Part shown: positions 57,484 through 64,000 of the stretch, piece after piece
Layout of the letters: every line of letters begins with the position of its first letter
How positions within the stretch are numbered: the first letter of the stretch is position 1
Source of the DNA: an uncultured Granulosicoccaceae bacterium
GTDB taxonomy: Bacteria; Pseudomonadota; Gammaproteobacteria; Granulosicoccales; Granulosicoccaceae
Assembly: GCA_938005265.1 (NCBI GenBank)
Contig: CALLOA010000061.1
Span: forward strand, 1-64,000
Reading direction: 5' to 3'
DNA length: 64,000 nt
Position numbers and translations under genes: made by a program
Notes under the pieces: model-generated
What the model was told of the DNA's origin: nothing
The model's database searches: none
What the model saw: only the letters and a program-made list of their open reading frames with translations

Positions 57484-59535
57484 ATGCCAACTAAATTGTC
57501 AGGTCAATCTGCACACAAGAAAGATCAACGCATAGGTACTGCCTGGCAACTAATCAGCGCCGGTTTCGCTGCCATATTCCTGCTACTTGGCATGGTGTTA
57601 TGGATATCACTTGCAGCAGTAAAGAAAACCAACACCAGCTTTGCCACACTGGTTGAAAACACTGATCGCAAAACAACAGCTGCTTATCAAATGCGCGACC
57701 TGGTGAGATTGCGTTCCACCCAGATTGCAACTCTGCATCATCAGGCATTACCTGAAGACAACGAAAAGGTATTCGATAAGCTGTATGAGCTGACAGCGAA
57801 ATACAACCAGACACGGCTAATACTCAGCCAATCCAATCTCGATGAGAACGAGAAGGAAACCACAACAAAAATAGAAGAAGCCGGGGAACGGGTTCTACTG
57901 GCATACGGAAAGGCACACAATGCCTTCTATTCAATGCTTGATTCGAAACCCAAACTCAATAGCGCTATTGCTGAAGTAAAGCTGCATGAGCTGGTATTGT
58001 TGAAACAACTTAACGATCTTGTTGAGATGGAAAAAGCACTGGCCGAGGAATCTCTGCAATCTAACCAGGACAACTATGCCGCAACACAAAAAACCCTGAC
58101 TGCACTGGCATTAACCGCCTTGCTTGTCGGCATTGTTATCGCGATAGTCGTGGTCAGCCTTGTCGTCAGGGCAAACCGGCGAATTATCCACCTCGCCAAT
58201 CACGATGATCTTACTGGTCTTGCAAACCGTCGGTCATTTGAAGACAGGCTATCAAGAACACTCGTCAAAGCCGGCAGAAACAAAAATAAAACTTATGCAG
58301 TTTTGTACCTCGATCTGGATCGTTTCAAGGTAGTCAACGATACCTGTGGCCACCACGCAGGCGATAAATTACTTAAACAATTAACATCGCTATTCATCAA
58401 GTGGGTGCGGCCACATGATACAGTGGCCCGACTCGGTGGCGATGAATTCGCCATTATTGCTACTGCTGACTCTTTTGCCGAAATCGAAGAGCTGGCTAAT
58501 GAATTATGCAAGGAAACAGCATCGTTCATTTTCGAATACGAAAACCGGCAATTCAGTATCAGTATCAGTGTTGGTGTTATCCAACTCGATGGTGAAGAAT
58601 CTGAACTGCAGACAATAATGAACAACGTCGATTCTGCCTGTTATATTGCCAAGCAGTCAGGCCGAAATCGTGTGCACATTGCGCAGAAGAACGACGCTGA
58701 AATTCTAAGCTACCGCAGCAGTCTGGAAAACGTGCAGCGAATTCGGCGTGCAATAACTAACGAGAATTTCGAACTTTTTTACCAGCCGGTTTTCGATATT
58801 CGCGGGGACACACTAACCATGGAACATTGCGAAGTATTGCTTCGCATAAAAGACGAGAACGGTGCGTTATTTTCTCCTGAGGAATTTATTCCACTAGCTG
58901 AAAAATACAATCTGATGAGCGGTATCGACCGCTGGGTGGTCACTCGTGTTATTGAGTGGATAGAAGAACACCAGAACAACATTCACATGCCGCGTTTGCT
59001 GGTGAATCTGTCCGCACTATCCTACACAGACGAGCTATTCCTGAGTTTTCTGATCAAGTCGCTGGAGAACGCCAATATTGATTACAACAAACTGGCGTTC
59101 GAAATCACCGAGACTGCAGCCGTGGATAACACCGATGTCGCCAGCAAATTCATAAGCCGGATAAAACGATTTGGCTGCCGGTTTGCACTGGACGATTTCG
59201 GCTCGGGTTTTTCGAACTTTGCTTACCTGAAAAAATTACCTATCGACTATCTGAAAATTGATGGCACGCTAGTGAGAAACATGTGCCACGACCATATCGA
59301 CCAGGAAATGGTCAAAGCTATCAACCAGATCGCCCATATCGTGGGTGCGCAAACCATCGCTGAATTTGTCGAAAATGACGACATCCGCCAGTTGTTGCGA
59401 AAGATGGGCGTTGACTACGGACAAGGGTTCGGACTGCAAAAACCAACCATGTTGAGCAATTTGCTGGAGCAGGACTCCGTGCAGATCCTGCCGCAAGACC
59501 AGGACTCGCCGAATCCAAACCCTCGCGCAGCCTGA
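57484..59535 (+). CDS. membrane GGDEF-EAL protein (c-di-GMP synthesis/breakdown)
   Basis: 683 residues. Two membrane segments (AGFAAIFLLLGMVLWISLA at about 26-46 and LTALALTALLVGIVIAIVVV near 200) enclose a helical sensor region. The GGDEF domain has an intact RLGGDEFAII and DLDRFKVVND. The EAL domain has EVLLRI in place of EAL, with conserved DDFGSGFSNF, EITETAAV and QGFGLQKP. EVL is common in this subfamily and is compatible with activity, but activity is not shown. Orn, encoded at 37.2 kb, would finish c-di-GMP degradation. Start ATG 57484, no strong ribosome site. Confidence 0.93.
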   Translation: MPTKLSGQSAHKKDQRIGTAWQLISAGFAAIFLLLGMVLWISLAAVKKTNTSFATLVENTDRKTTAAYQMRDLVRLRSTQIATLHHQALPEDNEKVFDKLYELTAKYNQTRLILSQSNLDENEKETTTKIEEAGERVLLAYGKAHNAFYSMLDSKPKLNSAIAEVKLHELVLLKQLNDLVEMEKALAEESLQSNQDNYAATQKTLTALALTALLVGIVIAIVVVSLVVRANRRIIHLANHDDLTGLANRRSFEDRLSRTLVKAGRNKNKTYAVLYLDLDRFKVVNDTCGHHAGDKLLKQLTSLFIKWVRPHDTVARLGGDEFAIIATADSFAEIEELANELCKETASFIFEYENRQFSISISVGVIQLDGEESELQTIMNNVDSACYIAKQSGRNRVHIAQKNDAEILSYRSSLENVQRIRRAITNENFELFYQPVFDIRGDTLTMEHCEVLLRIKDENGALFSPEEFIPLAEKYNLMSGIDRWVVTRVIEWIEEHQNNIHMPRLLVNLSALSYTDELFLSFLIKSLENANIDYNKLAFEITETAAVDNTDVASKFISRIKRFGCRFALDDFGSGFSNFAYLKKLPIDYLKIDGTLVRNMCHDHIDQEMVKAINQIAHIVGAQTIAEFVENDDIRQLLRKMGVDYGQGFGLQKPTMLSNLLEQDSVQILPQDQDSPNPNPRAA

Positions 59536-59954: not shown

Positions 59955-60686
59955 ATGCAACATATTGGTTTGCAGTCTGGTCTACAGACAATCGCACATG
60001 GCTCCGGCAACGGGCCCGGCAAACGCAGCCTGATTCCCTGGTTGTTCGTTATTGTGCCCGTCGTAGCCCTGGCCTATCTGTTGCCGCAACAGCTACGAGC
60101 CATTAACGATGACGTCAATTTCGGTGTTCGCTCACTTCTTGCCACTACCGATGCGAAAAACATCCAAGTGGCCGTTGATGGGCGAGATGTTAGTCTAAGC
60201 GGCAAAATATCACCTAAGTTTGACCGCGACTTCTTTGTGCAGTCGTTGCAGTCACTGGAGCAGATCAGCTCGGTCACCGATGACCTTGAAGAACACGATC
60301 CGCGTGAGGAAGCCAGACGCCTGAGGAACGAGTTCCAGAGTGCCGTGCGCTCGGTTGATACTTCATCCATCCGCTTCGAGCCGAATAGTGCCTCCTTCAG
60401 CGCTGGTAGCGAAGCTGCGCTGAACGACTTGACGCAGCTCATGCTCAAGCATCCCGAAAGGCGTATCAAAGTTGCCGGTCACACCGACACATCGGGTAGG
60501 CGAGAGGTAAATCTCGAGTTAAGCAGGCAACGTGCTTCGGCTGTGACGGACTACCTGAGAGCCCGGGGAATTCCCAGACAACAGTTGTTATCACAAGGCT
60601 ATGGTTCAAGCCAGCCGATTGCCAGTAATGACACAGATATTGGTCGTGCCAAGAATCGACGAATAGAAATCATCGTCATGAACTGA
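59955..60686 (+). CDS. OmpA-type peptidoglycan-binding protein with a BON-like domain
   Basis: 243 residues. One membrane segment near 27-43 (PWLFVIVPVVALAYLLP) with no cleavage site, so it is probably anchored in the inner membrane with the rest periplasmic. Residues about 60-110 resemble a BON domain (VAVDGRDVSLSGKISPKFDR). The C-terminal OmpA domain is complete: IRFEPNSASFS, VAGHTDTSGRREVNLELS, RASAVTDYLRARGI and GRAKNRRIEI, where the Asp/Arg pair for peptidoglycan binding is present. It should attach to cell-wall peptides. First of three rightward genes; 13 bp before the next. Confidence 0.8.
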   Translation: MQHIGLQSGLQTIAHGSGNGPGKRSLIPWLFVIVPVVALAYLLPQQLRAINDDVNFGVRSLLATTDAKNIQVAVDGRDVSLSGKISPKFDRDFFVQSLQSLEQISSVTDDLEEHDPREEARRLRNEFQSAVRSVDTSSIRFEPNSASFSAGSEAALNDLTQLMLKHPERRIKVAGHTDTSGRREVNLELSRQRASAVTDYLRARGIPRQQLLSQGYGSSQPIASNDTDIGRAKNRRIEIIVMN

Positions 60687-60699
60687 TGCGGAGTAGATT

Positions 60700-62064
60700 G
60701 TGACTTACCTTTTGTCCCAAATTTTTATCAGCCTGCTTCTGGCAGCCGTTGCCGGCGGAGCCGTTGGCTGGATTGTGCGCGGGTTAAAAGCCCACAAGCG
60801 CGAACGAGAGCTGGGTGGTCTGGTGGAACGCCACTCAAGTGCGCTTGCCCAGGCGCAACAGGAGCGCCAGATGATTGCGGATGATTACGATGAAATGCAA
60901 CTGGGCCTGGAAAGTAAAATTGGTGAGCTGCAGGTCGAGAACAGAAGAATCCCGGAACTTCATGAAAACCTGACCAAGAGCCAACAGCTGGTTCAGCAGA
61001 TGATGAAAACCAGGGAATCCGAAATAGCGGACTCTCAGCAGCAGAGCGATCAGTTGAAGCAAGAGCTGGATAGCTTGCGAGTGCAACAAAAAAATGATCA
61101 CTCGGAAATAGCTGCACTCCGTAAAATCAATGCCGAACTGGGTGGCAACAAAAACCAGACTGAAACTGTTGTTAAATCAGATTCCATCGGCGAATCGGAT
61201 GCTGATTCCGTAAAAGAACAAAATACAAACCGCGCTGTAACAACACAAGAAGCTGCTACGAATTTGAACCACTCTCCGGCTGTAACCGGGTCAGATGCAA
61301 AGAGCACTCCAGCCACTACTAATTCAGCCACCTCAGTAGCTAGTGGCGTGTCTGGATTCCCTGGCGGCACAACTACCAACCCGGCAGAAACTGATAGCCG
61401 GCATATCGCAGTAGAAAATAACCAGTTAGAAACATTCTCTACTGACGAACTACAAGATGTTCTGGGTGAAAGTGCAGACAGAGCCGCTGTAACGCAGGCT
61501 GAGTTATTGGAACTTGAATCCGAGATCGAAGAGATGCGCGGCTACAATCGCGATCACGACTACTCATCAGAGCGCGTCGACTCGCAGCGATCTGGATCTT
61601 CCGATACCAAATCGGACATTTCCAGAGCTGGGCCCGCATTTTCGGAGGCTCCGGCATCCCTTGCTGGACAGCGAACATCCCTTGATGAAACACCCCGTTC
61701 GCTTTCATCATCCACTGTACCTGACGCTTCAGCAGTCGCTGAACTGCGTGAACATTTCAGTGCTGGTGGAGACCCTGAAGCTATTGATGATCTGCAAACC
61801 ATTCACGGAATCGGTCCGGTCATTGAAAAGTCCCTGAACGAAATCGGCATAACAAATTATCACCAGATTGCTGAATTGACACGCCGGGAAATCGAAGATA
61901 TCGCTGAAATTCTCGAAATATTTCCCGGAAGAATTGAACGCGACAACTGGATAGGCAGTGCCAGAAAATTGGCAGGCGACTCATCTGACCAAACAACGGA
62001 TAATGTAGAAATCGAAGCTCAAAAAGAAGCTGGAAAAGTGAACCTGCAAGCCGAGGAAGTCTAA
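60700..62064 (+). CDS. membrane-anchored coiled-coil protein with C-terminal helix-hairpin-helix domain
   Basis: 454 residues from GTG 60700, with GGAG at 60690-60693. One membrane segment (SQIFISLLLAAVAGGAVGWI) ends in the sequence GWIVRGLKA. A coiled coil of about 120 residues follows (KRERELGGLVERHSSALAQA and so on), then a Ser/Thr-rich linker (about 140-340). Near the C-terminus is a HhH-type domain: DDLQTIHGIGPVIEKSLNEI, then ITNYHQIAELTRREIEDIAE, then FPGRIERDNWI. Such HhH ends bind DNA or protein and occur in many uncharacterised proteobacterial proteins. With a cytoplasmic coiled coil it may link envelope and nucleoid, but this is speculation. Confidence 0.75.
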   Translation: MTYLLSQIFISLLLAAVAGGAVGWIVRGLKAHKRERELGGLVERHSSALAQAQQERQMIADDYDEMQLGLESKIGELQVENRRIPELHENLTKSQQLVQQMMKTRESEIADSQQQSDQLKQELDSLRVQQKNDHSEIAALRKINAELGGNKNQTETVVKSDSIGESDADSVKEQNTNRAVTTQEAATNLNHSPAVTGSDAKSTPATTNSATSVASGVSGFPGGTTTNPAETDSRHIAVENNQLETFSTDELQDVLGESADRAAVTQAELLELESEIEEMRGYNRDHDYSSERVDSQRSGSSDTKSDISRAGPAFSEAPASLAGQRTSLDETPRSLSSSTVPDASAVAELREHFSAGGDPEAIDDLQTIHGIGPVIEKSLNEIGITNYHQIAELTRREIEDIAEILEIFPGRIERDNWIGSARKLAGDSSDQTTDNVEIEAQKEAGKVNLQAEEV

Positions 62065-62125
62065 TTAGAGTGGTCAGGTAACACATGCAAGCTGCGGAGC
62101 AAAAACCCGCTTGACTCAGGAGCTA

Positions 62126-62155
62126 TACCGCGAAGCGAACTACCGCAAGGCGAAC
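62126..62155. repeat. 15-bp tandem duplication
   Basis: ACCGCGAAGCGAACT (62126-62140) is followed by ACCGCAAGGCGAACT (62141-62155), with two changes, in the gap between the two coiled-coil genes. Confidence 0.8.
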
Positions 62156-62298
62156 TGCGGCGAAGTACACAAGGATGAGGTTTCAATACCTTCAGCGCCC
62201 TGACCAGGCAACGAAAACAGTACCTGTATTTGCAGCGGCCTGAATGATCTCAGGACACATGGCAACCCGTTTTGAAAAAAACGTTGCTGGAGAGCTTA

Positions 62299-64000
62299 AT
62301 GCAATTGTTACAAAACCTTATTCAATCAGCTTCAGGCATGATTCAATCGTTGACCCCATCCATGCTGTTGTTGTTCCTCGGCGGGTTGTTGCTGGCCATG
62401 GTTTGCGCATCAATAGGCTGGATACTCAGAGGGCGCGGGGAGCAGCAAATCCAGAAAATCGCCGAAGCCCGAGGTAACCAGGCTATCGCGCTGTTACCTG
62501 GCCCGACTAAGCAGGCAATAGATCAGGAATTTACGGACCCACAAGCTCTTGATCAAACTATTGTGCTCGACCAGACCGCTATGGACGCATCCATTGGTCG
62601 CCATAAACAACAGGTCTCTCTCGCCCGCCCCCAAACGGTCTCGGGAATCACCAGCAATAGATCCAGTAGCCACTCTGATAGCACCCATCACAGCACCATT
62701 GATGCTGATAGCACGTTACTTGACTCCACCATCGCCGTAGTAGCAGGCGGCATCAAATCTTTGAGTCGTAGCAGCCGCAAGAGCACTTCTGAATTACAGA
62801 CCAAAGCACGTGACCTTGAACTTGAACTGCGCAGCACACGTTACAAACTCAAAACGCGCGAAGCGGAATTGCACGACTTCCGTACTCGCTCGACTGACGA
62901 GCTTCGGGATGCGAAAGAACGTATAGAAAAACTGCGTGCTGTAAAAGAATCGCTTAAAGGTAGCCAAGCTCATATTGTTCAGCTGACAGAGAAGAACCGC
63001 CAATTACAAAACGAGCTGGATACTAGCAACAAAGACAAGGCATCCAGTGAAGCTCTGAAAACCAGGTTGGCTGCAAGCCTTGAAGATCTGACCAAGTCAG
63101 AACAGCTATATAAGGAGGCAGCAAACAAAAACGAAACCCTGGTTCAATCTCTCGGCAATGAGTTGGCTGACCTGAAGAAAGCCAATAGCGAACTGATTGC
63201 GAAGAACACAGACGCACAAAAAGCCATTGCTGACGTGGAAAGCGAGGCTCAAGAAAACAGACATGCGCACTCGCAGATTCTTGCTGAGCGTGAAGCAGAA
63301 ATACAAAAACTTACCAGCTCTGAAGCTGGCAACAGTTCCAAGATAAGCGGTTTTGAAACACGTCTTATAGAACTCAACAATGAGCTGCAAGCGCAGAAAA
63401 ATATAATTTCTGCGCGTGATAGCGACATTGTGAATTTCAAAACCCGTGCTACTGCTGCGGAACAAAAAAATATCAGTTTAAGTGAGGACCTGAGTAATAC
63501 CAAGGCGGAACTAAAATCGCTACAAAAAACCAATACTGAATTACTCACCTCTAAATCCGATCTGGAGCATAAGTTACAGGCTATTGAAAGCAGGCGGTCA
63601 GATTTTCGCGACGAAACTGCCCGGGAGATCACACAACTACGCGAACGCATTAGCGGATTACAGAACCTTGAAACGGCCAATCTGAACCAGGCTAACACCA
63701 TCAAGAAGCTTGAGGGTAGGCTTGATGAGTGGCGCAACACCAAGCGAGAACTGGAACAACAGTCGGCTAAATTGATTCACGCCAATACCGAATCAGAAGC
63801 ACTTAAACTCAAATTCGATGACCTCGACCACCGCCTTGCAGAGGAAGCTTCAGCCAAGACCAAACTTGAGTCGGAGAATTCGCGACTCAGCAGTTCATTA
63901 AAGCAAGCTAGATCCAAGCGTGATGAATTACAACAGGCCCTGGAAAGCGCTAATACAAAAAATCATGAACTGAGGAAACAGGTTACAGAAATAGAGCATT
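62299..64000 (+). CDS. large membrane-anchored coiled-coil protein (3' end outside window)
   Basis: Reading from ATG 62299 (GGAG at 62289-62292) the frame stays open to the edge, over 567 codons. The start has hydrophobic IQSLTPSMLLLFLGGLLLAM and ends its membrane segment in GWILRGRGEQQ, the same GWI-x-RG motif as the preceding gene. After a polar stretch there is a continuous predicted coiled coil from about residue 165 on, with heptads such as LELELRSTRYKLKTREAELH and long Lys/Glu/Gln-rich segments (SEDLSNTKAELKSLQKTNTE). It resembles no enzyme family. Its C-terminus is unknown, so a HhH end like its neighbour's cannot be tested. Confidence 0.75.
   Translation, partial: MQLLQNLIQSASGMIQSLTPSMLLLFLGGLLLAMVCASIGWILRGRGEQQIQKIAEARGNQAIALLPGPTKQAIDQEFTDPQALDQTIVLDQTAMDASIGRHKQQVSLARPQTVSGITSNRSSSHSDSTHHSTIDADSTLLDSTIAVVAGGIKSLSRSSRKSTSELQTKARDLELELRSTRYKLKTREAELHDFRTRSTDELRDAKERIEKLRAVKESLKGSQAHIVQLTEKNRQLQNELDTSNKDKASSEALKTRLAASLEDLTKSEQLYKEAANKNETLVQSLGNELADLKKANSELIAKNTDAQKAIADVESEAQENRHAHSQILAEREAEIQKLTSSEAGNSSKISGFETRLIELNNELQAQKNIISARDSDIVNFKTRATAAEQKNISLSEDLSNTKAELKSLQKTNTELLTSKSDLEHKLQAIESRRSDFRDETAREITQLRERISGLQNLETANLNQANTIKKLEGRLDEWRNTKRELEQQSAKLIHANTESEALKLKFDDLDHRLAEEASAKTKLESENSRLSSSLKQARSKRDELQQALESANTKNHELRKQVTEIEH

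Follow-up and report, generated by a model that had tools for sequence, protein, structure and literature searches.

A recurrent BON-OmpA and coiled-coil-H3TH gene pair as a candidate wall-anchored envelope scaffold in several bacterial phyla

At the far end of the window, a 64,000-nucleotide stretch of contig C61 (65,365 bases) from a Granulosicoccaceae metagenome-assembled genome (MAG; Gammaproteobacteria, 4.9 Mb in 212 contigs), two adjacent genes encode what we propose, with moderate confidence, to be a two-protein peptidoglycan-anchored envelope scaffold with cytoplasmic arms. Gene 1 specifies a BON-OmpA protein, and gene 2 a coiled-coil protein with a transmembrane (TM) helix and a C-terminal H3TH (helix-hairpin-helix, HhH) domain. 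A preliminary description of the locus had overlooked that this pair recurs across several phyla, which is its strongest point. It had read here three rightward genes with short gaps. The three same-strand open reading frames were verified (Table 1), the third running from 62272 and still open at the window end at 64000; the spacing is indeed short between genes 1 and 2 (13 bp) but not between genes 2 and 3 (207–234 bp). Conservation points to a core of two genes, to which gene 3 is optional.

Forty relatives were searched separately with gene 2 and with gene 1; the closest named relatives in the gene 2 comparison are themselves Granulosicoccaceae MAGs. Close homologues of both genes were found in 12 genomes (the host included), and in all 12 they are same-strand neighbours separated by just 6–36 bp. 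The expectation that three genes would stay together therefore held for genes 1 and 2 but not for gene 3, which lies beside the pair in 3 of the 12 genomes (the host, G002 and G003, where it is just 443 amino acids (aa) long), is absent there in seven, and could not be read in two at contig ends, giving 3 of 10 readable loci. A fixed three-gene operon is ruled out by its absence from the other 7 of these 10, where an alpha/beta hydrolase and an ABC exporter follow gene 2 directly. Most other family loci have a small membrane coil protein upstream of gene 1, with a weak H3TH in several, and other genera of the Granulosicoccaceae hold paralogous pairs with longer BON/OmpA proteins.

For the cleanest test beyond the family, the gene 2 alignment was run against a single genome of each species, which yielded 79 loci picked irrespective of OmpA. 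Among the readable loci not labelled as Gammaproteobacteria, an OmpA gene lies directly upstream in 35 of 39 and two genes away in one more, the three exceptions being two Acidimicrobiia and Nonlabens; among the more distant genes of the 79 loci, OmpA occurred in 0 of 434. Immediate upstream placement was seen in Spirosoma, Flavobacterium, Saprospiraceae, Microscillaceae, Rhodothermales and Nitrospira, and also in Acidimicrobiia, a Myxococcota MAG, Bryobacterales and Hyphomicrobium; the two genes are often separated by no more than -4 to 4 bp. Pfam also detects BON in the Nitrospira, Bryobacterales, Acidimicrobiia and Hyphomicrobium partners, in some cases below the cut-off. In other gammaproteobacterial MAGs the upstream position is held by a TM-BON protein lacking OmpA (3 of 4). 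At the gammaproteobacterial MAG loci L120, L127 and L140, a TM-BON gene without OmpA overlaps the H3TH gene, an apparent reduced module.

A larger, deduplicated pool of loci, which includes some fetched owing to earlier matches, gave a similar picture outside the family: TM-bearing H3TH proteins have OmpA/BON upstream in 61 of 77 cases (OmpA within two genes upstream in 58, BON immediately upstream in 3; an N-terminal TM helix and a readable upstream side were required), as against 12 of 40 for H3TH proteins without a TM helix, mainly members of a Nitrospirota cluster. Bacteroidota, Nitrospirota, Acidimicrobiia, Myxococcota, Bryobacterales and Alphaproteobacteria are among the groups that show the pairing. 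The H3TH domain itself is a minority feature of the genomes surveyed: 35 of the 274 from Gammaproteobacteria have it, as do 11 of 99 from the phylum of Nitrospira, 15 of 198 from that of Spirosoma and 18 of 190 from the class to which Hyphomicrobium belongs; on plasmids, a search for H3TH returned solely rhizobial and methylobacterial matches.

The domain readings of the preliminary description were borne out. The OmpA domain of gene 1 (PF00691) is highly significant in Pfam (3.5e-22; 79 bits against a cut-off of 27.2) and by Foldseek resembles the C-domains of OmpA, Pal and OprF (best 1.1e-13), and its GHTD..G and NRR motifs are invariant across 12 orthologues. BON falls below the Pfam threshold (0.011), but we accept the assignment because the AlphaFold model (mean predicted local distance difference test score, pLDDT, 86.8) places a beta-beta-alpha-beta block (residues 70–113: strands 70–75, 78–85 and 106–113, helix 91–99) between a long helix (27–65) and the OmpA fold, and because a profile of the 12 orthologues matches Mycobacterium tuberculosis Rv0899/ArfA over both domains (6e-31). 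The region also conserves a GRD..LSG motif in the orthologue alignment. Since GKR precedes the TM helix, the protein is predicted to be N-in and uncleaved, with a periplasmic C-terminus.

Gene 2 is predicted to face the opposite way beyond its membrane helix, its C-terminus being cytoplasmic because positive residues come after that helix. Its coil has a 3.5-residue periodicity (z = 2.9) and a conserved IP.L..NLEKSQ..V.Q block, and is followed by a linker of about 200 residues whose net charge is -22 in the window and -16 to -58 in orthologues. These predicted topologies agree with the layout from wall through membrane to cytoplasm that had been suggested for the locus. A variant cluster in the Nitrospirota bears on the same point: at L280, L281 and L283 a long coiled-coil H3TH protein (830–1034 aa, no membrane helix) is followed by OmpA and then by a TM-coil protein whose H3TH is either in frame or encoded by the open reading frame that follows (cluster variants L284–L286). 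Because the long protein has neither signal nor membrane segment, the H3TH ends are most simply placed in the cytoplasm. This cluster, with its other gene order, also partly rescues the three-gene idea.

We propose that gene 1 would sit in the inner membrane with its OmpA domain gripping peptidoglycan and its BON domain between membrane and wall. Anionic lipid is bound by BON2 of DolP, but lipid binding is not a general property of BON domains (PMC7806268). The gene 2 protein would lie beside it, possibly in contact within the membrane, and reach into the cytoplasm, first with its coiled coil and then with the flexible acidic linker, at the end of which H3TH may dock a protein partner. That partner would be fixed at wall-anchored sites by what we take to be a passive tether and not a motor, since no channel-type partner occurs among the neighbours examined. 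If this is right, an as yet unnamed scaffold from cell wall to cytoplasm is common to several bacterial phyla, the H3TH domain, otherwise seen on ribosomal, respiratory and photosynthetic proteins, has a recurring genomic context, and the question of its binding partner becomes tractable in a small two-gene system.

The nature of that partner separates this scaffold from a nucleoid tether, in which H3TH would bind DNA non-specifically through its hairpin and the module, with the giant coil of gene 3, would tie the chromosome to the wall. The gene 2 domain is confidently modelled (mean pLDDT 89.3) and has the HhH fold, with a G-I-G hairpin conserved in a 97-row alignment, and the gene 3 coil, if continuous, is long enough to reach deep into the cell. 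The best Foldseek matches include the RadA/Rad51 N-domains and the NusA AR2 domain bound to SuhB, every one at E >0.05, so the fold alone does not choose between DNA and protein. The usual DNA-binding HhH hairpin is GxGxxxA. In H3TH its alanine position is occupied by Glu in 96% of domains, and the core has a mean charge of -2.5, net negative in 82% of the 97 domains (-5 in the window, where the UvrC (HhH)2 region is +1 by comparison). Judged on such sequence traits alone, H3TH has neither the basic surface nor the canonical GxGxxxA of DNA-binding HhH domains, and because domain and linker are acidic we disfavour DNA binding, and with it the link to the nucleoid suggested earlier; a tether of this kind is unlikely, and docking to protein the more likely role.

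The company that H3TH keeps elsewhere leads in the same direction. All 97 members match the tail regions of the NCBIfam NuoE, L21, S2 and PhaH models, the corresponding tails occurring on NuoE, S2 and the phasin PhaH, and PDB sequence matches were to 9wqv (complex I 41 kd subunit) and 8yy9_O; bL21, NuoE and phasin are not obviously DNA-bound. The bL21 of the host genome has two C-terminal H3TH tails (L083:4265-5275, G000:C9, - strand), with similar tails in ten other family genomes. RC-LH1 protein-O carries an H3TH-type tail, whose function a 2025 structure paper calls obscure (PMC12079452). By eye, H3TH tails were also seen in relatives on putative transhydrogenase PntA and putative polyhydroxyalkanoate (PHA) synthase proteins (L335, L336, L337, L339 and L340). 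At L292, L293, L294 and L295 in the Bacteroidota, such tails occur on bL21 and on a polytopic membrane protein resembling NrfD/ActC, and no OmpA-linked H3TH copy was seen in these genomes.

Several observations weigh against the scaffold as we draw it. DNA polymerase IV models are matched by 79 of the 97 H3TH members, and the RadA/Rad51 likeness, though at the Foldseek values given above, is to an HhH of the DNA-repair type. Many H3TH-tailed proteins have no OmpA neighbour, so the partner of the domain need not be envelope-specific, and at L074 and L075 the OmpA neighbour is kept although the protein that resembles gene 2 has no significant H3TH.

Alternatively, the pair could be a sensor of envelope stress or mechanical load, the OmpA/BON protein feeling tension or wall spacing and relaying it through the gene 2 coil to alter H3TH binding. 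A periplasmic OmpA domain paired with a cytoplasmic arm would suit such a role, the structure matches include signalling OmpA proteins of the YfiB type, and a GGDEF-EAL gene lies upstream of the module in the window and in G002. The pair has no kinase, receiver or regulator domain, however, and the GGDEF-EAL neighbour is not retained in other phyla, which makes a sensor improbable. We give still less credence to gene 1 acting alone as an ArfA-like envelope protein with gene 2 a merely co-regulated neighbour: its TM-BON-OmpA layout is that of Rv0899/ArfA, but unless the two are linked in function, it is difficult to account for an adjacency that crosses phyla and falls mainly on those H3TH proteins that have a TM helix. 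An energised envelope machine of the Tol-Pal, ExbBD or MotAB type can be all but dismissed, since, for all that the OmpA domain of gene 1 matches MotB, PomB and Pal, no TolQ/ExbB/MotA-type partner was found among the neighbours examined (the rest of the genome was not searched).

A bolder extension of the scaffold, and a long shot, is that H3TH serves as a common docking tag and the module as an array of receptors, anchored in the wall, by which complexes so tagged would be positioned at the membrane. On this equally speculative footing, contacts would be between H3TH domains or through a shared ligand, and the tagged complexes would be ribosomes (through bL21), complex I, PHA granules and reaction centres. 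The host genome holds both the module and the doubly tailed bL21. Were it true, the module would be an envelope-based organiser of a new kind.

Gene 3 has the layout of gene 2, with a GWI(L/V)RG membrane motif, a coil and H3TH, a likeness which the preliminary description missed. Its start is probably ATG 62299, which follows GGAG, and not TTG 62272, because orthologue N-termini align at the former. From the TTG, 1031 aa are readable to base 65365, where the frame is still open at the contig end; residues 165–1031 have strong heptad periodicity (z = 11.4 against shuffles) and not one proline in 867 residues. The C-terminus is probably on a second contig of the host, C126 (G000:C126:1-1485), whose 494-aa product is 39–42% identical to the C-terminus of the 1461-aa G002 orthologue and terminates in H3TH, with hydrolase and ABC genes next, as after that orthologue. 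The two contigs do not overlap by as many as 12 bases, so the inferred join rests on homology and synteny. Gene 3 may provide a second arm, optional and very long but built on the same plan, which would probably join gene 2 through their coils. Giant TM-coiled-coil-H3TH proteins without an OmpA neighbour were also observed (L084:3724-9654, 1976 aa; L089:8420-12466, 1348 aa), and relatives reach at least 2553 aa (L163).

Scans for promoters and terminators gave sites no more numerous than in shuffles. The GGDEF-EAL gene occupies 57484–59535 of the window and is itself preceded by LexA-like, ImuA-like and ImuB-like genes; in relatives other than G002, an upstream gene of GGDEF-EAL type was judged by size and membrane pattern. 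On the other side, an alpha/beta hydrolase, an ABC ATPase and an ABC-2 permease are conserved after the module in the family (L062:12974-16586; L082:1485-3886).

Table 1. Positions in the window of the three genes, their predicted domains and the gap before gene 3.
Feature	Position	Strand	Basis or remark
Gene 1, 243 aa, BON-OmpA protein anchored in the inner membrane	59955..60686	+	Open reading frame, Pfam, AlphaFold model, profile match
Gene 1 predicted TM helix, ~residues 27-48	60033..60098	+	Hydropathy scan; model helix 27-65
Gene 1 BON-like domain, ~residues 66-113	60150..60293	+	AlphaFold model; conserved GRD..LSG motif
Gene 1 OmpA-type peptidoglycan-binding domain, ~residues 138-240	60366..60674	+	Pfam; Foldseek; invariant motifs
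Gene 2, predicted TM + coiled coil + acidic linker + H3TH, 454 aa	60700..62064	+	GTG start, GGAG upstream
Gene 2 predicted TM helix, ~residues 5-27	60712..60780	+	Sequence and orthologue alignment
Gene 2 predicted coiled-coil segment, ~residues 28-160	60781..61179	+	Periodicity; conserved block
Gene 2 acidic low-complexity linker	61180..61785	+	Net charge
Gene 2 C-terminal H3TH (helix-hairpin-helix) domain	61786..61980	+	AlphaFold model; profile matches; 97-row alignment
Gap between genes 2 and 3	62065..62298	+	Neither a terminator nor a promoter stands out
Gene 3, N-terminal part of giant TM-coiled-coil protein (probable start)	62299..64000	+	Runs on to base 65365 of contig C61
Gene 3 predicted TM helix (SLTPSMLLLFLGGLLLAMVCASIGWILRGRG region)	62362..62427	+	Hydropathy; motif shared with G003 443-aa and G002 1461-aa homologues
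Gene 3 predicted long coiled coil	62764..64000	+	Heptad periodicity; proline-free

In agreement with the preliminary description, no named OmpA-HhH system was found in the libraries or open-access literature searched, and an earlier description elsewhere is possible. The likeness of gene 3 to crescentin or SMC is generic coiled-coil similarity far under the cut-offs (for Rod_CreS, PF19220, 18.9 against 100 bits), and YhcB/ZapG (DUF1043) is not among the Pfam matches at E<=1. With crescentin and other bacterial coiled-coil cytoskeletons gene 3 shares a long heptad-repeat coil, and differs in being membrane-anchored with an H3TH end. OmpA proteins beside cytoplasmic long coiled-coil proteins are also found in the FtsZl1 - vWA - OmpA membrane-remodelling loci (PMC2875224). 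We rejected that system as a match: by Pfam, none of the three proteins of our locus has an FtsZ-like, vWA or GTPase domain, and the text of PMC2875224 is silent on HhH.

The closest parallel to gene 1 is ArfA/OmpATb (Rv0899) of M. tuberculosis, which has the same order of TM anchor, BON-type and OmpA domains and whose structure, 2l26, is listed by Foldseek. Proteins of this kind are linked with acid adaptation and ammonia release. Its operon partners are ArfB and ArfC, which are not H3TH coiled-coil proteins, and no small membrane genes of the arfBC type stand beside gene 1, the neighbours examined being TM-coil-H3TH, hydrolase and ABC genes. Gene 2 ends in the same domain as the H3TH tail family (COG3743-type; NuoE, bL21, S2, PhaH and RC-LH1 protein-O), but those are tails on metabolic and ribosomal proteins, whereas gene 2 is a dedicated membrane coiled-coil protein paired with OmpA. 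Wall anchors of the MotB/PomB/Pal/TolR type likewise grip peptidoglycan through an OmpA domain from a membrane anchor; the present module, with no ion-channel partner seen, differs from them in its BON domain and H3TH partner. The parts are known, then, as an ArfA-like layout and an H3TH tail, while the pair that they form across phyla matches no named system in what was searchable.

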